DNA of 64,000 nt from Gynurincola endophyticus. Lineage in GTDB: Bacteria > Bacteroidota > Bacteroidia > Chitinophagales > Chitinophagaceae. Location of the stretch: assembly GCF_003991195.1 (NCBI RefSeq), contig NZ_RCWL01000006.1, positions 96,256-160,255 of the forward strand, in the 5' to 3' direction. Position 1 is the first letter of the stretch, and every line of letters begins with the position of its first letter. Below are positions 39,502 through 48,483 of this stretch, piece after piece. The position numbers were made by a program, and so were the translations under genes. Below the pieces are notes generated by a model. That model ran no database searches. It was not told the origin of the DNA and saw only the letters and a list, made by a program, of their open reading frames with translations.

Positions 39502-39883
39502 AGTTAATTTGTTTTATTTATCCGCATTAATTGTGATAAATCTTTAAACAGAAAATGGGTTTGCTTTAGCGGGTCGTTAAATTTGGTTAAATAATTACAA
39601 AAGAAGAAGAATACTTACCTATAGTACAAAGACATCCTACACATACAAACACACTATTATTCTTCGGTTGCTTTTCTGATTATTGATTACCTGATAACTC
39701 CCCCAAAATTAAACCCTCAAAGATATTATTGTGCCTCGCTTTTAAAATCCAAGTCAATTTTTTCTGTCTCTGCAAATAGGCTGAAAAGCCTATTCGTATA
39801 ACTTACTTTCTCCCGCGATCAGCTTGCACATCAAGTATTCCCGATCATAATAATCTTTTCTTTTCATTTTAAAACCCGTATCT
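39502..39883 (+). promoter_or_regulatory. 382-base non-coding leader before the MauE-like gene
   Basis: I find no gene in this gap. TAAATTTG at 39578-39585 is a good -7 box (its best TTG partner at 39561 is too close), which would give a leader of nearly 300 bases. Near its end a neat hairpin occurs: aataggct/agcctatt (39775-39782, 39787-39794) closing a GAAA tetraloop. A long structured leader before a small membrane protein and an exported peptide may carry regulation, but I do not recognise a known riboswitch. Confidence 0.4.
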
Positions 39884-40342
39884 ATGCGCAAACAGTGGAT
39901 AGGTGAAGGGATGGTAATGATTATTGTATGTCTGTACGTTTTTGTTGCAGTATCAAAAGTGGTTGGTTTTGACCCTTTTGTTTCACAGCTAAAACAGCAA
40001 CAGTTCATCGGTAATCATGCTGTTCTCATCGCAATCATTGTGCCCCTGCTTCATGCCTTGCTGGCTGCGTTGATCTTTATAGAGAAAACACGCACTGCCG
40101 GACTTATTATAAGCATGCTGACTCTTATGGGCTACAATTTATACATCGCTTCTATTTTATTAAACAAACTTGGTCTGGCTCCTTGTAATTGTGTGGGAAT
40201 CTGGCATACTATGTCATGGGAAACACAATACATCATTAACTTTTTACTATTGTTTATGCATTGGTATTGCATAAATAATCCGATTGCTCCGGAAAAACCA
40301 ACGGTAATCACTTCCGGTATTACTCCGAAACCATCCTATTAA
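39884..40342 (+). CDS. MauE/DoxX-like redox-associated membrane protein
   Basis: 152 residues with four predicted membrane helices (about 8-26, 47-66, 72-92, 115-133). The third loop reads LAPCNCVGIWHTMSWETQYIINF, matching the CxC...MSW pattern of the MauE-like proteins that Bacteroidota encode beside thioredoxins, TonB receptors and small cysteine-containing peptides. MauE proteins are thought to help form or shuttle disulfides across the inner membrane, in analogy to DsbB/DsbD-type functions. The cysteine pair CNC here is the only one in the protein. A cysteine-rich exported peptide is encoded 73 bases downstream on the same strand, a plausible client. Confidence 0.8.
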   Translation: MRKQWIGEGMVMIIVCLYVFVAVSKVVGFDPFVSQLKQQQFIGNHAVLIAIIVPLLHALLAALIFIEKTRTAGLIISMLTLMGYNLYIASILLNKLGLAPCNCVGIWHTMSWETQYIINFLLLFMHWYCINNPIAPEKPTVITSGITPKPSY

Positions 40343-40415
40343 AATTCGCGGAACTGATTAGCATACTGCCATGCATTTTTAACACTCAATTTCGAAACAC
40401 TTAAAAAAGTAAATT

Positions 40416-40694
40416 ATGAGAACGAAAAAAGCAAAAATCTGGCTAGGTTTATTTATTGTAATGTTTACCGCCTTTTCTTCATTTGAAGTAGCAAAGGAAG
40501 AAACACCGTGCTATTATTTTCAGATGTTCTGGAGTCAAAATTTATCAGATCCGGCCTGGGCTGGGTTTGGTGAAGTCTGGATGTGCTCTACTGATCTTAC
40601 TCCTATTTGTGCCTGGAACTGGAATGAATTGTATCAAAATTTTGACCCCTGTATGAGGGGCGTACCCGTTTTTGTGGAAGAGGGAGTTGAATGA
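40416..40694 (+). CDS. Small exported Cys/Trp-rich peptide (DUF6520-like)
   Basis: 92 residues. A signal-like helix (KIWLGLFIVMFTAFSSFEVA) is followed by a mature part of about 65 residues with four cysteines (32, 57, 65, 79) and five tryptophans, an unusual composition. The late part CAWNWNELYQNFDPCMRG resembles the small DUF6520-type proteins that accompany MauE-like proteins in Bacteroidota; the match is from memory of pattern and not certain. The gene is real in my judgement because it has a signal peptide, its own start context, and is convergent with and just 18 bases from the SusD gene. Possible roles are signalling peptide, metal-binding peptide or precursor of a modified product. Confidence 0.75.
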   Translation: MRTKKAKIWLGLFIVMFTAFSSFEVAKEETPCYYFQMFWSQNLSDPAWAGFGEVWMCSTDLTPICAWNWNELYQNFDPCMRGVPVFVEEGVE

Positions 40695-40712
40695 TAAACT
40701 GGTAGTAAGGTA

Positions 40713-42062
40713 TTAATTTCTTGCTACCTGACGGATATTGAATGATTTAATTACTGAATTTGGATACAATATATTGATTCCTGGATCGGAAACGGTTATC
40801 TTAACTTCGTTCTGATCCAGGATTTTTTTTAATTGGGTATCGGTACCTTCATTGTAATATCTTTTGATATCAGCCAGCCTGATTCCTCGCATGATAAATT
40901 CTTTTTTACGCTCATCCCTGATGAAATCAAGACTATTTGTATACGCAGAAGTGAAAATGTTTTGCGTATATCTTTTTGATAGCCATTCTGCTAATGAAGC
41001 CTGATAATCCTGTGCGTAATTCAGTCTTAACTCACACTCCAGTTTATTCAGAAATACTTCCGAATAAGTGAATCCCATAAAAGAGCTAAACAGACTTGCC
41101 AGATAAGGATTTTTATAAAAATATTTACCATTTCTCAAGGTAAAGAATAAACTTTTTCTTTTGTCATAGTTATTGTAAAGTCCGATCAATTCTTCATTGA
41201 TATAAATATTTGTATTCGTCATCATTGACAATAAAACACTTTCCAATGAATTAAACGAAATGGTACCGATAATATCCGGTTGTAAAAAAATTCTTGTATT
41301 CTGATTCGTATACAATGTGAAATTGATCAAAGAGCCGCCTTCTATGCCCAATAATTCTTTGGAGTAAAACAGCGATTTTTCATATTGTTGTGTATATAAA
41401 AAATACCTTGAGGCAAAGGCCAGGATCCATTTTCTATTCACCAATATATTGATACTAGTCGTTTTTTCGGCTTCTTTAGTTAAATTAAGTGCTTTCTGTA
41501 AATCAGAATCTATAAAAGCAAAAGTGGCCCTGATACTGAGTTGTTGTATCGTTTCATCAATATAGGCTGTAATTCTGAGAGGTACACCTAACATTGACTC
41601 ACTGTTAATATTTGCATAGCTGTGGAGCTGCATTAAATCGTAGTAAGTCTTTGCTCTTATAAAATAGCTGATTCCCAGTAAAAATTTATCATATTTTGAG
41701 AGCGTTTGTTTTAAACTATAAAAATCTATAATTGCATTTACGGTAAGTATTTTATTGTAATAATGTTTCCAGTCTTCGAAACTTTCGTTTTCCTGTATAA
41801 AATTGTCTCTCCAGTAGTAAAAAGAGATATCCCTGGTGTTGAGCTGTGGATAAATGGATGGATTGTAGGAAATTTCATCAGTAATCAGAACAGAGATATT
41901 AGATTCCCAATCATATAAAAATTTATTATTGAGTAAGTGTTCCACATCTTCAGCAGAAGTGATCGTTTCAACGTTGGTAGATGTTATACTGTCAAGTAGT
42001 CCGGATCTGTTACAGGCGGTTAACAGGAGTATACTCACTATGATGATAACTTTACTGCTCAT
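40713..42062 (-). CDS. SusD/RagB-family lipoprotein
   Basis: 449 residues, starting with a lipoprotein signal (VIIIVSILLLTAC, cysteine about 17). SusD features are weaker than in the first copy but clear in order: a helical TPR-like N-terminal half (YFIRAKTYYDLMQLHSYAN, with SIRATFAFIDSDLQKAL) and the family C-terminal motif DFIRDERKKEFIMRGIRLADIKRYYN followed by the ending LYPNSVIKSFNIRQ. Its start codon overlaps the SusC stop in ATGA, which implies tight translational coupling. As the system is controlled by ECF sigma/FecR and lacks glycosidases, the ligand may be a peptide, siderophore or other non-glycan molecule rather than a polysaccharide. Confidence 0.9.
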   Translation of the reverse strand: MSSKVIIIVSILLLTACNRSGLLDSITSTNVETITSAEDVEHLLNNKFLYDWESNISVLITDEISYNPSIYPQLNTRDISFYYWRDNFIQENESFEDWKHYYNKILTVNAIIDFYSLKQTLSKYDKFLLGISYFIRAKTYYDLMQLHSYANINSESMLGVPLRITAYIDETIQQLSIRATFAFIDSDLQKALNLTKEAEKTTSINILVNRKWILAFASRYFLYTQQYEKSLFYSKELLGIEGGSLINFTLYTNQNTRIFLQPDIIGTISFNSLESVLLSMMTNTNIYINEELIGLYNNYDKRKSLFFTLRNGKYFYKNPYLASLFSSFMGFTYSEVFLNKLECELRLNYAQDYQASLAEWLSKRYTQNIFTSAYTNSLDFIRDERKKEFIMRGIRLADIKRYYNEGTDTQLKKILDQNEVKITVSDPGINILYPNSVIKSFNIRQVARN

Positions 42063-45000
42063 AACGTGAATTTAAAGTTTACATTAAAGCTTCTTCTGAA
42101 GAAATTATTAATTATCTCCTGAGTTTTGTTATTTGACAGGTTCATCAGATTGTTTGTACTGAGCGTTATGCTCAGATTGTTCAGTTTCTTAATCCGGTAG
42201 TTAACATAGAAGTGTTCTATACTCATTACTGAACTGTTGTGATAAGCCAGATTTGAGTACATCAGGTATAGAACGTTATCAAGTGCCAATGATTTAATCA
42301 ATAACGGATCACCGACACTTTCGGTAATTTCACTCAGAAGTGGGCTTTGAAGCCCTATGTATGACGATAGGAAGTCGTTAAAAGTGTTTTGCTTTGATAA
42401 TACATTCAATTGACTTCTATAGGAAATATTCATCCCGATTGTAAGGGATGGTGCGAGGTCAGCCTTAGTCATCCATCTGATCAGGTATCTTGGTAAAAGA
42501 TTTCCTACACGTGTAGTATTGTTCAGGTTCTGCTCTTTCAAATAACTTTCAAAGCTGGCATACCCTTTAGGTAAAACAGGAAATGCGGTGGTGGCATCCA
42601 TACCGTTCCAGTTATTAGCGTAAATAGAATACAGTTCTTCGCCGGGTAAATTGATAATTGGTTTACGCAGAATATCCATTTTATACTCTGGTATTGCCGC
42701 ATATCTTTTGATAGTAGATTTGTTATAATTAAAAGAAAGCTGGTTATACCACTTTACTTTATTACTAAAATTTGCTTCATTTGATACAAATATTTCAAGG
42801 CCCTTACTCAGCAGGCGCCCGTCATTCACCCAGGCATTATCTACTCCCAGAATCGGGTCGATCATTTTGTTGATGATCAGATCCTTTGAGTTGTTTTCAT
42901 AATAGTCAATGCTTGCATTAATATTTAATTTTTCAAAATATCTGTTTAAGCTGATATTCAGATTGTCTGAAGTTTCCCATTTAAGGTTGGGGTCATTCGG
43001 TTTCAATAACTGTAAAATCGGAGTGGCACCCTGTGCTGTAGTTTGCTTCATCACTTGTAAAAGCGAAGTGGTATTGTGATCAATATTACCGGTTTTACCA
43101 AAATTTACATTTATACTGGTATTCTTAAAATGGCGGTTTTTAGTCAGCTCCTCAAGATTAAATTTCGAACCTATTGACCATAATGGTATAAACTTGTTAT
43201 TGATATTAACACCAAACAGGTTGGATGCATCCCTTCTCAGGTTGGTTTCAATGATAATTTTATCTTTCCATTGATTCGTTAATAATAAGAATTCGGAATA
43301 GTAGTTTTCATTTACGTTAAAATTTCTGATGTTTTGTTTAATAATGCTTGATGCTGATTTATTCAGGATAGGGTATAACGGATCAAGATCAATATATACA
43401 GATGATTTGTTTTCAGAATTATAACCAAACTTCAATTCGTTCGTATACCCTATTTCTCTTTTTCTAGCCTCACCGCCGATAATGATCATTGATTTCAGGC
43501 TCCATTTAGGAACTTCGAAATGATAACTGGCTGTATAACGATAAGTTTGTGTTTTTTCGTCGGTAATACCTTCGTGCCGCATTTCTCCTCTGGGAATAAT
43601 ACTCTTCAGCTCACCATTTTCAACCCATGCAAACTTGTTGTAAGTGTGCCGGTATTCATAACTTTCTTCTCTGAAACGGTAAATATCCTGATGACGGCTA
43701 AAATTAAAGTTATAGATGAAATCAAAATGAAGCCTTTTCTTCACTTTGAACTTTGCGTTTAACTGGAATAGTAATTCGTTCTGATACTTATTACCAAAAT
43801 TATTCTGGTGTTCTGTTAATGGATAATAATTCCAATTGCGGTAACCTAACAGGTCGGTCATTGAGTCTTTAAATGATTGACGATAATCCATTGCTACAGG
43901 TAATGCTTTTCCTCCGGCATCAGCCCAGGGTGCGTACTGGATAAATTTATCAAGGTTTTGAGTAGGATCATGTGGCAGGTCATGCCTCCATTCTGTGTAT
44001 AAAATATGATTACCTAATTCTACGCCATTAAAAGGCAAAAATCTGTTTTTGTTATTAACGGTCAGTCTGTTCGATTCCTTACCGGGTGTTTCATGCAATT
44101 GTTTTAAACCACCGATCGAAAAGAAATAGGTATTTTGATTTCCGCCTCCGATAATTTGTGCATTAGCCTGTGTAAAGCCTGCATTTCGTTGGAAGTGATC
44201 TTTGATATCATTTCTGATATCCTGATTTCTGAAGCCTTCTATTTTGCGATTCACTTCTGTTGAACTGACAAGCCCTTTGCTTTCAGCATACTTTAGTTCT
44301 GCTACAGGCGAGAGGATAGGAAAGTTAGGTCTGTTGTAGAATCTGTCGTAATATTTCTGATCGAAGAGCCTTAGCTCCAGATCAATAATTTCTGAAGAAC
44401 TCAGGTAATCTTCGGCAAAGAGGTTCTTTTTGCGTGCTATACCGCTGGTGACTGATGCTGTTATCCTGGCTTTATTATTGACTTTTCCTTCTTTTGTGGT
44501 AAAGACAATTACACCGTTACCGGAACGGGCACCCCAGATGGCTGCTGCAGCTGCATCTTTTAGTACATCAACGCGCGCAATATCATCAGGATGTATATTG
44601 AATGTATTACTTTGATAAGGAATCTGATCTAAAATAATGAGCGGGTTCGGATTCGCGTGTATAGTAGTTCTTCCTCTGATCTGATATTGAGGAATGTTAT
44701 TGGTAAAATCATTATTAAAATGCTGAATCATGGCAGGAATCTGCATGGCAATGTTTTGCATGATATCAGGATTGGCATTGGTCGCAATTTCATTAGCTGT
44801 AAGTGACGATAATTTACCGGTAAACCTGTCTTTTGCCTGACGCACATACCCGGTATTGATCATTGTTTCTAATTCTTCAATCACTTCTGTTAATTGAAGG
44901 GTAGAGGTAATGGAATCGGTTATCTGAGTGTTTAGTGGCTGATGGCCTACATAGCTGACAGTAATTGGTACGGGTAGCGATTCAACCTTCATTTCAAAGT

Positions 45001-45448
45001 ACCCGTTATCATTGGTGCTGATGCCTCTTTTCTTATTGTTGACATAAACAGTAGCGCCTTTCAGGGCTTCCTGCCGTTGGTTAATTACTCTTCCCGAAAT
45101 TGTGATTTTATGAATGATTCTTTCTTTGGGTGTGGGATCATATTTCAGTACGATCACGTGTTGGTCAATGATGTAAGTAATCGGAAAAGAGAAGAACAAA
45201 GAGTCGAGTGCAGCATGAAAAGAAAGTTTCTCTGCTTTGAAGTTGATGCGCTCTTTTAAATACGAACCGATTTTGTCGTTTTCGAACTGAACAACATACT
45301 TACGATCTTTGGCAGTAGAAAGAATGCTGTCGAGAATTTTCTTGACAGAGGTGTTCCGGACATTGATCGTTATTGTTTGTGCATGCACGTTAGCGCATGT
45401 TGCTGCAAGAACAATTAATATAATTGCTAGGTGTTTCAATCGAGACAA
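42059..45448 (-). CDS. SusC/RagA-family TonB-dependent receptor with N-terminal STN signalling domain
   Basis: 1129 residues. No ATG fits the 5' end: the frame starts with TTG at 45448, or at a second TTG at 45439 that leads directly into the signal peptide KHLAIILIVLAATCANVHAQ. Domains in order: STN (about 27-110, ITINVRNTSVKKILDSIL ... FKAEKLSFHAALDSLFF), carboxypeptidase-like beta domain (ITISGRVINQRQEALKGATVYV), plug (MINTGYVRQAKDRFTGKLSS, DVLKDAAAAAIWGARSGNGVIVFTTK) and a long barrel ending in FNVNFKFTL. The STN domain is the part that contacts a FecR anti-sigma factor, so this is a signal-transducing receptor, matching the fecR and ECF sigma genes upstream on the same strand. Confidence 0.95.
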   Translation of the reverse strand: MSRLKHLAIILIVLAATCANVHAQTITINVRNTSVKKILDSILSTAKDRKYVVQFENDKIGSYLKERINFKAEKLSFHAALDSLFFSFPITYIIDQHVIVLKYDPTPKERIIHKITISGRVINQRQEALKGATVYVNNKKRGISTNDNGYFEMKVESLPVPITVSYVGHQPLNTQITDSITSTLQLTEVIEELETMINTGYVRQAKDRFTGKLSSLTANEIATNANPDIMQNIAMQIPAMIQHFNNDFTNNIPQYQIRGRTTIHANPNPLIILDQIPYQSNTFNIHPDDIARVDVLKDAAAAAIWGARSGNGVIVFTTKEGKVNNKARITASVTSGIARKKNLFAEDYLSSSEIIDLELRLFDQKYYDRFYNRPNFPILSPVAELKYAESKGLVSSTEVNRKIEGFRNQDIRNDIKDHFQRNAGFTQANAQIIGGGNQNTYFFSIGGLKQLHETPGKESNRLTVNNKNRFLPFNGVELGNHILYTEWRHDLPHDPTQNLDKFIQYAPWADAGGKALPVAMDYRQSFKDSMTDLLGYRNWNYYPLTEHQNNFGNKYQNELLFQLNAKFKVKKRLHFDFIYNFNFSRHQDIYRFREESYEYRHTYNKFAWVENGELKSIIPRGEMRHEGITDEKTQTYRYTASYHFEVPKWSLKSMIIIGGEARKREIGYTNELKFGYNSENKSSVYIDLDPLYPILNKSASSIIKQNIRNFNVNENYYSEFLLLTNQWKDKIIIETNLRRDASNLFGVNINNKFIPLWSIGSKFNLEELTKNRHFKNTSINVNFGKTGNIDHNTTSLLQVMKQTTAQGATPILQLLKPNDPNLKWETSDNLNISLNRYFEKLNINASIDYYENNSKDLIINKMIDPILGVDNAWVNDGRLLSKGLEIFVSNEANFSNKVKWYNQLSFNYNKSTIKRYAAIPEYKMDILRKPIINLPGEELYSIYANNWNGMDATTAFPVLPKGYASFESYLKEQNLNNTTRVGNLLPRYLIRWMTKADLAPSLTIGMNISYRSQLNVLSKQNTFNDFLSSYIGLQSPLLSEITESVGDPLLIKSLALDNVLYLMYSNLAYHNSSVMSIEHFYVNYRIKKLNNLSITLSTNNLMNLSNNKTQEIINNFFRRSFNVNFKFTL

Positions 45449-45498
45449 GAAATAACAGTGAAGTTATATCCGAAAATAAACATTACCCCAAAGTTTAC

Positions 45499-45543
45499 AA
45501 AAAAAAACTGCATAAGATATTTATACAAATATCCTATGCAGTT
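45499..45543 (-). terminator. Intrinsic terminator between fecR and susC
   Basis: On the minus strand, stem aactgcata-N-gatattt pairs with aaatatc-N-tatgcagtt (45506-45522 with 45527-45543; one mismatch, loop atac) and is followed by a run of seven T residues (complement of 45499-45505). It lies 84 bases after the fecR stop, so susCD is probably transcribed from its own promoter between 45449 and 45498. Confidence 0.75.
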
Positions 45544-45626
45544 GCGGATTTCATCTGATTAACATACTGCAAAAGTGTTATATCCGCTCTGTGCGAATAA
45601 ATGAGTTATATGTATTACGTTGATGG

Positions 45627-46862
45627 TTAGTTGATTATAGAAAGCTTATTTGGGTAAACGGAACTATCTAATTTTAGCGTAATTCCTAAATAGGTTAATA
45701 TTTTCAGATTTTCTGAAATTTCTTGTCTTGGATCAAATGTGATCGTAAACTTACGGTGAAGGTTAAAGTCTTTATTAACCTCTAAGTTCAGGTTGTACCA
45801 GTTTTTTAAGGTCAAAAGAATACTTCCGATTTCGCTGTTATCCCAGGAGAGCATTCCATCATACTTTCCGGAGAGCGTTTCAAGGTCAAATTCTTTTGAT
45901 TCAATACCTTCGTTAGAAGTGATGGCTGATTTACCGGCAATAAGAACTTCTCTTCCTGAATAATAGTTTACTTCCACTACACCTTCTAATACACCCGTTT
46001 CAAAAAAATCCTGTTCTTTGAGTGAACTAATCCAGAAACTTGTACCCAAAACGGTTACCTGAGCCGGTGCGTTGAGTTTTTCGTTTATTACTTCTACTTT
46101 AAAAGGTTGCTTTCTTTTCGTTTTCTGAACACTAAAGAGGGCTTCACCTGCGAGCGCTACTTTGCGCTCCGTTTCTGTAAAAGAAAGTGGAAATTTCAAC
46201 GATGATCCGGGGTGTAAACCGATTTTACTGCCGTCTGCTAAAAGCAGATTAATTTTACCGTTATAAGGTGTTTCAACAAAAACGGTGGTGGATGTTGGCT
46301 TTTTATGAACTTCACTGATAATTTCTCCGTTTGGATACATTATAGATTCATTAGAAAATACAATGGTATCTATAGCTTTTTCAATAATAATAGGCTGATC
46401 ATTACCAATTCTGATTACTGTTCTGTCTGCAGCTGGTTTACTAACGTGTGCAGGTAATGTAAACAGCCTGGTGATTGCTGTAGGGTCGGTAGGGTTTTTG
46501 TCTAAACTGTTCATATACCATACTATGCCTCCCAATACTACTATCAGTACCCCTGCGGCGATAGATAAAAGTTGCCGGTATTTGGTAAAGAACGATTTAG
46601 GCTCTTCGGTTTCACGTATACAGTCGATGAATATTTTTTCTACGTCATCTTTTGAGATGCTCTCCAGTTTAGAAAATTGCTCATCTAATAAGGCAGCAGA
46701 AGAGTACTCGCCCACCAGTTTCTCAAACAAGGCAAGATTTGCTTCGTTTTGACAGACCCATTGTATAAGTTCATCTTTTTCAGCAGTAGTGATTTCTCCT
46801 GATAAAAAGCTCTCAATGAGGTCTACGATACGGTCAATATGTTCATAATCCAGTTCAGGCAT
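45627..46862 (-). CDS. FecR-family anti-sigma factor
   Basis: 411 residues. The cytoplasmic N-terminal part (1-95) is helical and would hold the ECF sigma factor. One membrane helix (LLSIAAGVLIVVLGGIVWYM) lies at about 95-115. The periplasmic part has the FecR beta-rich core: NRTVIRIG-like repeat, VETPYNGKINLLLADGSKIGLHPGSSLKFPLSF (LADGSxVxLNxxS pattern), RKVALAGEALFSVQK, FKVEVINEKLNAPAQVTVLGTSFWI. The end (YDGMLSWDNSEIGSILLTLKNWYNLNLEV) is the STN-like DUF4974 region that meets the receptor. It transmits the ligand signal from the SusC STN domain to the sigma factor encoded 147 bases upstream. Confidence 0.94.
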   Translation of the reverse strand: MPELDYEHIDRIVDLIESFLSGEITTAEKDELIQWVCQNEANLALFEKLVGEYSSAALLDEQFSKLESISKDDVEKIFIDCIRETEEPKSFFTKYRQLLSIAAGVLIVVLGGIVWYMNSLDKNPTDPTAITRLFTLPAHVSKPAADRTVIRIGNDQPIIIEKAIDTIVFSNESIMYPNGEIISEVHKKPTSTTVFVETPYNGKINLLLADGSKIGLHPGSSLKFPLSFTETERKVALAGEALFSVQKTKRKQPFKVEVINEKLNAPAQVTVLGTSFWISSLKEQDFFETGVLEGVVEVNYYSGREVLIAGKSAITSNEGIESKEFDLETLSGKYDGMLSWDNSEIGSILLTLKNWYNLNLEVNKDFNLHRKFTITFDPRQEISENLKILTYLGITLKLDSSVYPNKLSIIN

Positions 46863-46979
46863 GTTCCTCTAGTACTTGTTCTTTTATATAAAACGCTGAT
46901 TCCTTTAAATAGTAACCACTTTAGGTATACTTTATTTTTCAAAAAAAACAGACATTTTTAATCTGTTGATTATCAAAAT

Positions 46980-47008
46980 AAAAGGCTACTGAACATCAGT
47001 AACCTTTT
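46980..47008 (-). terminator. Intrinsic terminator after the ECF sigma gene
   Basis: Hairpin with arms aaaagg-c-tactga (46980-46992) and tcagta-a-cctttt (46996-47008), one internal mismatch, three-base loop. On the minus strand it lies just after the sigma stop at 47010 and is followed by a T-rich stretch (ATTTTG), so fecR has its own or readthrough transcription. Confidence 0.7.
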
Positions 47009-47009
47009 G

Positions 47010-47555
47010 CTAATTTAAATGGTCTTTAAAGTTCTTTAAGATTTTGTATTTCTGTGTCTTTATATATGCTTCGGTGGTTTTCAGGCGGTGGGCGATTTCT
47101 TTGTTGGAAGCCCCGTCTACATATGTCTGTTTGAGTATATCTCGTTGTTTAGGAGAGAGTGTTTGCCATTTTTTGTACACTTTTGACAATAATTTTGCTT
47201 TCATATATGCTTCTTCATCCTGCATTTCCTGGCTTTTCTTAGAATGAAGTACCTGATAGTTCTCCATTGTTGTTTGCTCTTTGTTTTTCTTTTTTTGAAA
47301 ATCTATACTGGCATTTTTGCAAGATTTCAGTATGTAGGCGATTAAACTGCGTTCAGAGTCAAACCGGTCTTTGTGTTTATATATTTTTATAATAACATCC
47401 TGAAGAATGTCTTTTACATCGTCTGCATCTTTTACATGGTTGTACACCTGAATTTTTAAGAAATTCGAGTGCTTTTCAATAAACTCCTTAACGGAAAGTG
47501 TTGTTCCGTTACTGAATTGAAAATACCATTCGGGATTGCTGAGATGTTGACTCAT
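47010..47555 (-). CDS. RNA polymerase ECF sigma factor
   Basis: 181 residues from ATG 47555. Longer in-frame starts at 47582 and 47621 exist, but the extra residues (NVIIQTKDNILAMRELLQII) do not belong to the family. Region 2 is LKIQVYNHVKDADDVKDILQDVIIKIYKHKDRF with the -10-binding aromatic/basic helix, and region 4 is WQTLSPKQRDILKQTYVDGASNKEIAHRLKTTEAYIKTQKYKIL, a helix-turn-helix for the -35 element. This is the sigma-70 family ECF type that Bacteroidota pair with FecR. It should drive the susCD genes when the receptor is occupied. It diverges from the superoxide dismutase gene. Confidence 0.92.
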   Translation of the reverse strand: MSQHLSNPEWYFQFSNGTTLSVKEFIEKHSNFLKIQVYNHVKDADDVKDILQDVIIKIYKHKDRFDSERSLIAYILKSCKNASIDFQKKKNKEQTTMENYQVLHSKKSQEMQDEEAYMKAKLLSKVYKKWQTLSPKQRDILKQTYVDGASNKEIAHRLKTTEAYIKTQKYKILKNFKDHLN

Positions 47556-47739: not shown

Positions 47740-48483
47740 ATGTCTACAAATAATACTACACGACGAGCATTTATTTCGAATACAGCTAAAGTGGGTATTG
47801 GTGCGATGGTTTTACCGGGAGTTTTACAAAGTTGTGGAAATAATGCGGCTGTTGCTTTACCTACAGTAGGGTTTCAACAAGCTGCTTTACCCTATGCATA
47901 CAATGCTTTGGAACCTGTAATTGATGCAGCTACTATGGAATTGCACTATACCAAACATGCAGCCAGTTATGCCAGTAATTTAAAAGCTGCATTGGAAGAG
48001 GAAAATGTGGATGTAAGCAAAAATACTTTAGAAAATATTCTGGCTACCGTTTCGAAGTATTCTACAAAAATGCGTAACAATGCCGGAGGGCACTATAATC
48101 ATGAATTATTCTGGCAAATGATGCGCCCTGCTGCAGATCAAAATGCCCCTGCGGGTGATCTGCTGGCTGCTATTGAACACCAGTTTAATAGTTTCGACGC
48201 TTTCAAAAGTCAATTTACAGAAGCTGCAAAGTCTACTTTTGGTAGCGGCTGGGCCTGGTTGATTATTGACGGAAAAAAACAGCTTCAGATAACTTCAACA
48301 CCCAATCAGGATAATCCATTAATGGATGTAGCAGCTGTTAAAGGCACTCCTTTGTTAGGATTAGATGTTTGGGAACATGCTTATTATCTGAATTATCAGA
48401 ACCGCCGCCCTGAATATATTGAGAAGTGGTGGAGTCTGGTAAACTGGGATTATGTAGCATCCCGCTATGCTGCAGTAAAATAA
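47740..48483 (+). CDS. sodA: Exported superoxide dismutase (Mn-type Fe/Mn family)
   Basis: 247 residues, about 40 longer than a cytosolic enzyme because of a leader: TTRRAFISNTAKVGIGAMVLPGVLQSC has the twin arginine of a Tat signal (Arg8-Arg9) and a lipobox-like cysteine at 32. Metal ligands are in place: His in LHYTKHAASY, His in GGHYNHELFW, and Asp and His in LDVWEHAYYL. Two positions distinguish metals in this family: AGGHYNH has Gly where Fe enzymes have Gln, and STPNQDNPLM has the Gln typical of Mn enzymes. So a Mn-dependent periplasmic or membrane-anchored enzyme is predicted. It removes superoxide outside the cytoplasm. Monocistronic, with a terminator downstream. Confidence 0.93.
   Translation: MSTNNTTRRAFISNTAKVGIGAMVLPGVLQSCGNNAAVALPTVGFQQAALPYAYNALEPVIDAATMELHYTKHAASYASNLKAALEEENVDVSKNTLENILATVSKYSTKMRNNAGGHYNHELFWQMMRPAADQNAPAGDLLAAIEHQFNSFDAFKSQFTEAAKSTFGSGWAWLIIDGKKQLQITSTPNQDNPLMDVAAVKGTPLLGLDVWEHAYYLNYQNRRPEYIEKWWSLVNWDYVASRYAAVK

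Follow-up and report, generated by a model that had tools for sequence, protein, structure and literature searches.

In the methanobactin system of methanotrophs, as outlined in the accounts used here, MbnA is a ribosomally made cysteine peptide with a conserved leader and a variable core that is re-imported by the TonB-dependent transporter MbnT, and a FecIRA-type module (MbnR/MbnI) is found in only some members (PMC3621798, PMC9601215). A further source mentions MauE as speculated to form disulfides in MauA (the methylamine dehydrogenase small subunit) and places MauE genes in candidate clusters for ribosomally synthesized and post-translationally modified peptides (RiPPs) that decRiPPter found in Streptomyces (PMC7794033). 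Here, we analyzed a locus in a 64,000-nucleotide stretch of Gynurincola endophyticus (Chitinophagaceae; genome size 4.5 Mb; contig NZ_RCWL01000006.1, positions 96,256 to 160,255), called the window below, in which genes for a MauE-like membrane protein and a small exported cysteine peptide converge on genes for a SusC/SusD transporter (SusCD), a FecR-type anti-sigma factor and an extracytoplasmic function (ECF) sigma factor. The locus is almost certainly one instance of a two-operon module conserved in the Bacteroidota. No description of such a peptide-SusCD (MauE) module was found in the open-licence literature searched, in which DUF6520, the Pfam family matched by peptides of related loci, is named in no paper.

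Like methanobactin, as those accounts describe it, the module combines a ribosomal peptide with two to four cysteines and a more conserved leader with a TonB-dependent transporter encoded alongside; in both, an N-terminal signaling domain, FecR and ECF sigma factor accompany only some members, and multiple transporter types occur per genome. MbnA, however, is given there as shorter than 50 residues and modified by MbnB/MbnC, whereas the window peptide has 92 residues, and no MbnB/MbnC-type enzymes were found among the assigned open reading frames (ORFs) of the window locus. The module also differs in having a SusCD pair as its transporter and, usually, MauE, and its peptide is not known to bind metal. 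Similarly, the MauE/MauA pair, as presented in its source, sets a MauE-family protein beside a small exported cysteine protein, but in the module the steady neighbor of the peptide is SusCD, and no mau-like genes were seen among the ORFs around the window MauE. An amine-dehydrogenase-type small subunit was rejected as an identity for the peptide because tryptophan is not conserved in the peptide family alignment. The decRiPPter families have MauE beside a short candidate precursor; as far as that source goes, they differ in being actinobacterial, predicted only, and devoid of SusCD.

The window SusC and SusD satisfy the definition of a SusCD transporter (a barrel with a plug and an adjoining SusD lipoprotein), and the solved relatives of this SusC include RagA and SusC homologs. 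RagAB and other SusCD importers, which have the same SusC/SusD pair, take up foreign peptides or glycans, whereas the present locus encodes its own exported peptide. Carbohydrate-active enzymes, the mark of a polysaccharide utilization locus, were not found among the assigned ORFs at 36-51 kb of the window. All the parts of a FecIRA-type system are present in the window by family profiles (an STN extension, FecR and an ECF sigma factor), as in FecA-FecR-FecI signaling in the portion of its source used here (PMC11658791), but they are not special to the module, control SusDs carrying FecR as often.

To follow the arrangement, a SusD set was chosen only by similarity to the window SusD from a search space of 394 Chitinophagaceae genomes (40 of the first 43 non-own relatives; the three skipped, L069, L074 and L100, were already in the MauE set and show the array), along with 20 control SusDs from the same genome sample that belong to neither set (ten from the head and ten from the tail of the list). 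Counting as a peptide any exported ORF with a Cys-x(4-9)-Cys pair, we found a convergent peptide within 2.5 kb in 36/40 of the SusD set and in 0/20 controls (p 2.5e-12), and a convergent MauE within 6 kb in 25/40 and 0/20, respectively. The original prediction of this system had named a consistent lack of the peptide-MauE pair at homologous SusCDs as grounds for refuting it, and these counts point the opposite way. The misses in the SusD set are a contig edge (L162), a peptide without cysteines (L173) and two loci with no convergent peptide (L142, L157).

For the MauE set, 40 relatives were taken from the 46 leading non-own ones, with six short contigs or second copies skipped. A peptide lay downstream in 34 of them, and all 34 faced a SusC or SusD that converges within 7 kb, compared with two of the six MauE loci lacking a peptide (Fisher p 1.6e-4); one MauE locus scored as peptide-less but with a convergent SusCD, L078, is probably a missed peptide, as judged from its profile match. 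Whenever MauE and SusD lay within 3 kb of each other in these two sets, they were convergent (54 pairs, 0 in another orientation). Chance adjacency was rejected on these 54/54 pairs and on the contrast with the controls. In the class search space of 295 genomes, DUF6520 (PF20130) matches were present in 29, eight of them over the cut-off. Thirteen places were inspected, namely all 10 over the cut-off and three below it, of 34 listed, and 13/13 showed MauE directly upstream and a convergent SusD-SusC; 12 of these lie outside the family. The same order was found in 7/7 named kin loci (Niastella, Longitalea and a Flavihumibacter metagenome-assembled genome), six of the seven being records already counted among the loci above. 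A related-locus search queried with the window MauE protein gave no match, and the other three MauE-profile matches of the source genome had no SusCD or peptide pair in the surrounding stretch inspected. For what follows, a unit is a distinct locus with a convergent peptide beside SusD (n = 79); the median distance from peptide stop to SusD stop in the units is 131 bp.

Two kinds of peptide occur in the units, one with two cysteines and a four-cysteine type A. The latter is defined by a signal peptide, the pattern Cys - Cys-x(4-10)-Cys - Cys-x2-Gly, and a position downstream of MauE, where present, and convergent with SusD; the window peptide falls within this definition. Its translated ORF has a hydrophobic N-terminus and a mature part with four cysteines and five tryptophans, and C32, C57, C65, C79 and G82 are invariant in 20/20 aligned sequences. 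By sequence, the family members look like Sec-exported domains with a mature size of 60-120 residues, and the number of cysteines after residue 22 is even in 61/79 peptides. As a direct query against the 394 family genomes, the window peptide found no convincing homolog (best E 0.002); its kin were identified through MauE and SusD neighborhoods rather than by a peptide query. A type-A profile of 32 peptides, built after 17 rows had been taken out (16 ORFs that fitted only the pattern, removed manually, plus the window peptide itself as a leave-one-out), matched the window peptide at E 3.1e-5 over its full length, and the next-best window ORF on the mature profile reached only E 36 or worse. 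In Pfam, the window peptide had no match up to E 1, the DUF6520 threshold being 25.4 bits, whereas DUF6520 was found in 6/8 kin peptides with E values of 1 or less, three of these exceeding the cut-off.

AlphaFold modeled the window peptide poorly (predicted local distance difference test, pLDDT, 60.7); the model of one kin peptide was good (pLDDT 83.5) and showed a small beta domain. No counterpart of the kin model was found in the PDB (Foldseek best E 3.1; VIA-align none at Z 2), and the peptide profile matched no PDB sequence. Neither the peptide nor MauE had a match in PHROGs, nor the peptide in plasmids. Several such loci occur per genome, and tandem peptides occur: in L166 (G105:C1:4755500-4775499), seven DUF6520-like paralogs stand in tandem between MauE and a convergent operon of thioredoxin-like, SusD and SusC genes. 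A second related peptide lies on the far side of MauE in L135-L137, L140, L141, L149, L153 and L154 (peptide-MauE-peptide facing SusD). The peptide of L173, at about 7.3-8.3 kb, is canonically placed with a mature part that lacks cysteine; cysteines are therefore not needed in every member.

Identities were compared in 106 non-independent pairs in which the SusDs are 50-97% identical. The means were 46% for the mature peptide, 58% for SusD, 60% for SusC and 62% for MauE, with 57% for the peptide leader versus 35% for the SusD signal region. In these pairs the mature part changes faster than the proteins beside it, and its leader is kept better than the SusD signal. When 79 paired rows and 24 unpaired ones were placed on one SusD tree, the four-cysteine group needed six changes (26.3 on average after shuffling) and the unpaired group eight (21.8 after shuffling). 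The four-Cys/two-Cys label changed four times on the SusD tree of the paired rows. For the 66 units with MauE, the peptide-type label needed five changes on the SusD tree and six on the MauE tree (shuffled means about 19), and from these similar counts the locus moves as a block.

MauE is present in 66/79 units and FecR in 48/79. Where MauE is missing, the peptide is still found directly beyond the SusD stop, with gaps of 1-83 bp in ten loci, so the core of the module is the peptide together with SusCD. MauE is a frequent, not a universal, partner, and the sigma system is a local regulator. Other contexts of MauE were also seen. A peptide-less MauE is followed by a helix-turn-helix protein (by eye) of about 92 residues in L092, L067 (also L043, L057) and L045, and a similar ORF lies about 570 bp past SusD in L159. 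In L195-L199, L201, L203 and L206, a long C-terminal region is fused to the MauE domain; the L199 fusion matches only MauE in Pfam.

The own peptide is probably recognized by its own SusCD, a partnership that we found undescribed in the literature searched. Beyond recognition, the peptide may serve its SusCD as cognate ligand or carrier, a reading that we favor tentatively and hold somewhat short of an even chance. In its favor are the convergent order, kept in relatives and absent from controls, the peptide staying at SusD where MauE is missing, the thioredoxin-like or S9 peptidase genes after SusD, the fast divergence of the mature part behind a better-kept leader, the few changes of peptide type on the SusD tree, the several loci per genome with tandem peptides, and the parts shared with methanobactin. 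A small disulfide protein of the DUF6520-like kind would be exported by Sec, and MauE would help to oxidize its cysteine pairs or keep them in order. The peptide would then act outside the cell, either alone as a signal or carrying a small nutrient or metal, and SusCD would bind and import it using TonB energy. Where they are encoded, a thioredoxin-like protein would reduce the imported peptide and an S9 peptidase would cut it. In the window and in much of the Chitinophagaceae, STN, FecR and the ECF sigma factor would let occupancy of SusC raise expression. Binding, import, the crossing of the outer membrane, the cargo and the action of MauE on the peptide are the steps that we infer. Methanobactin is the nearest working precedent for this mechanism. 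That gene-encoded disulfide peptides of the Bacteroidota more widely form a large, fast-evolving group of exported scavengers or private signals, re-imported by their own SusCDs and unloaded by reduction or proteolysis as a ribosomal counterpart of siderophores, is possible and rather doubtful.

Several observations weigh against the peptide being a ligand or carrier. FecR is not enriched near the peptide-linked SusDs over the controls (FecR upstream of SusD in 32/40 of the SusD set versus 14/20, p 0.52), and the upstream regions of the peptide/MauE operons share no motif with those of the SusC and ECF operons (z averaging -0.02 and -0.27). For export past the periplasm, the lipobox pattern was found in 0/79 peptides, and no secretion gene or dedicated exporter was noticed in the loci inspected. 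The window peptide reaches only E 0.053 on the type-A profile by its mature sequence alone. The trees do not tell whether the peptide follows SusD or MauE, and the lean of the partial correlations with the peptide toward SusC (0.28) and SusD (0.27) over MauE (0.15) is modest. The cysteine-less peptide of L173 and the two loci without a convergent peptide also stand on this side. Finally, very long branches lead to the window SusD and MauE, so statements on the window rest largely on its kin.

The chemistry around the module concerns disulfides and peptides, not glycans. SusD is the last operon gene in 53/79 units, and the gene after it in the other 26 is thioredoxin-like in 16, an S9 peptidase in nine, and in one (L095) counted as other, although it has a TlpA match; among the controls this gene was thioredoxin-like in 2/20 and something else in 18/20. 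A thioredoxin-like gene lies within 5 kb in 33/79 units versus 2/20 controls. The absence of glycosidase, peptidase and siderophore genes noted in the original prediction holds for the span it described; as regards peptidases it does not extend to related loci, where S9 peptidases and thioredoxin-like proteins occur. The CxC motif is present in 66/66 MauE proteins of the units, in keeping with disulfide chemistry on the peptide and, to that extent, the earlier suggestion that MauE helps to oxidize it; the action itself we infer. The same observations, together with the mostly even cysteine counts, would also suit a peptide that stays in the periplasm and takes part, with MauE and at times the thioredoxin-like protein, in a thiol-disulfide relay that reduces or processes SusCD imports, for example disulfide-bonded peptides that are cut by the S9 peptidase. 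We keep this explanation mainly because neither lipobox nor exporter is seen for the Sec product. It is nevertheless unlikely: a relay protein would be expected to be conserved in sequence, yet the mature peptide evolves more rapidly than the neighboring proteins, tandem paralogs (L166) and one cysteine-less peptide (L173) occur, and the peptide remains at SusD where MauE is absent.

The original prediction placed sensing at the center: the peptide would be a self-made signal, passed from SusCD through FecR to the ECF sigma factor, with signaling as the purpose of the system. STN, FecR and the ECF sigma factor are indeed all in the window, and many units have FecR. This core role was not upheld, as FecR is equally common near control SusDs, the peptide and receptor operons lack a common upstream motif, and most DUF6520 loci beyond the Chitinophagaceae have no FecR/ECF genes. 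With FecR not enriched and FecR/ECF mostly missing beyond the family, signaling is therefore a regional add-on, and as the purpose of the module we regard it as distinctly unlikely.

An improbable alternative is that the peptide is a small stoichiometric part of SusCD, in the periplasm or the lumen, serving assembly or closure of the transporter and not as cargo. There is usually one peptide per SusCD, and it is the nearest neighbor of SusD and is inherited with it as a block. A subunit or gate would also agree with the small beta domain modeled with confidence for the kin peptide. The control SusCDs, however, work without a peptide (0/20), and the peptide belongs to a separate convergent operon, not a co-transcribed one, with up to seven tandem paralogs (L166). 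It is highly improbable that the exported peptide is an antagonistic, bacteriocin-like product with SusCD as its receptor or clearance system: the conserved leader and variable core, the tandem paralogs and the several divergent copies per genome would agree with it, but no recurring immunity or dedicated export gene was seen in the loci inspected, and a transporter that travels with the producer would make the producer sensitive.

The number of SusD genes per genome ranged from 22 to 114 in 15 genomes, and where no enzymes are encoded close to a SusD, a substrate has usually not been assigned to it. Should the peptide be the ligand or carrier, one class of SusCD would have a substrate that is made by the cell and encoded in the next gene, and peptide-based scavenging or signaling would be extended to the Bacteroidota, where we know of no such own-peptide SusCD. 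The module also gives DUF6520 and the MauE proteins of Bacteroidota a context.

The features of the window locus are listed in Table 1. The MauE-like protein with its CNC loop and the 92-residue peptide of the original prediction were recovered from the ORFs and PF07291, the ORF coordinates agree with convergence on a minus-strand SusD with 18 bases between the stops, and the receptor and regulatory parts were recognized by family profiles and by a profile of kin SusC N-termini. The sigma factor is likewise present, but its predicted end at 47555 is an internal methionine and the ORF runs further. The window SusC scored 301 bits with TIGR04056, below the model's own cut-off, and was over the cut-off with TIGR04057. 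Its STN was weak in Pfam (13 bits, below the cut-off); a profile built from 44 kin SusC N-termini matched residues 1-112 at E 2.9e-17, and the signaling extension is therefore real.

Table 1. Features of the peptide-SusCD locus in window coordinates.
Feature	Position	Strand	Basis
MauE/DoxX-type membrane protein, 152 aa	39884..40342	+	PF07291, 67 bits against a cut-off of 27
CxC loop of MauE, sequence CNC	40184-40192 (codons 101-103)	+	Read from the ORF
Precursor of the exported four-Cys peptide, 92 aa, type A, a divergent DUF6520-like member	40416..40694	+	Alignment, profile, position
Gap between the convergent stops of peptide and SusD, 18 bases	40695..40712	.	ORF coordinates
SusD-like surface lipoprotein, 449 aa	40713..42062	-	PF14322 and PF07980 over cut-off
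SusC/RagA TonB-dependent transporter, 1129 aa, TTG start as listed	42059..45448	-	TIGR04056, TIGR04057, plug PF07715, CarbopepD_reg_2
STN-like signaling extension of the SusC N-terminus, about residues 24-102	45143..45379	-	Profile of kin N-termini
FecR-type anti-sigma factor, 411 aa	45627..46862	-	PF04773 and PF16344 over cut-off
ECF sigma factor, 203 aa	47010..47621	-	PF04542, PF04545, TIGR02937; internal Met at 47555 is a possible start

Other genes were seen near some of these loci. In L152 and L155, the peptide-SusD pair lies beside a protein that we take, from the appearance of its sequence, to be Ku-like, and PAAR-like repeat proteins are found further along. In the window, a Fe/Mn superoxide dismutase gene (47740-48483, +) is divergent from the ECF gene; the N-terminus of its product is twin-arginine-like and contains cysteine.

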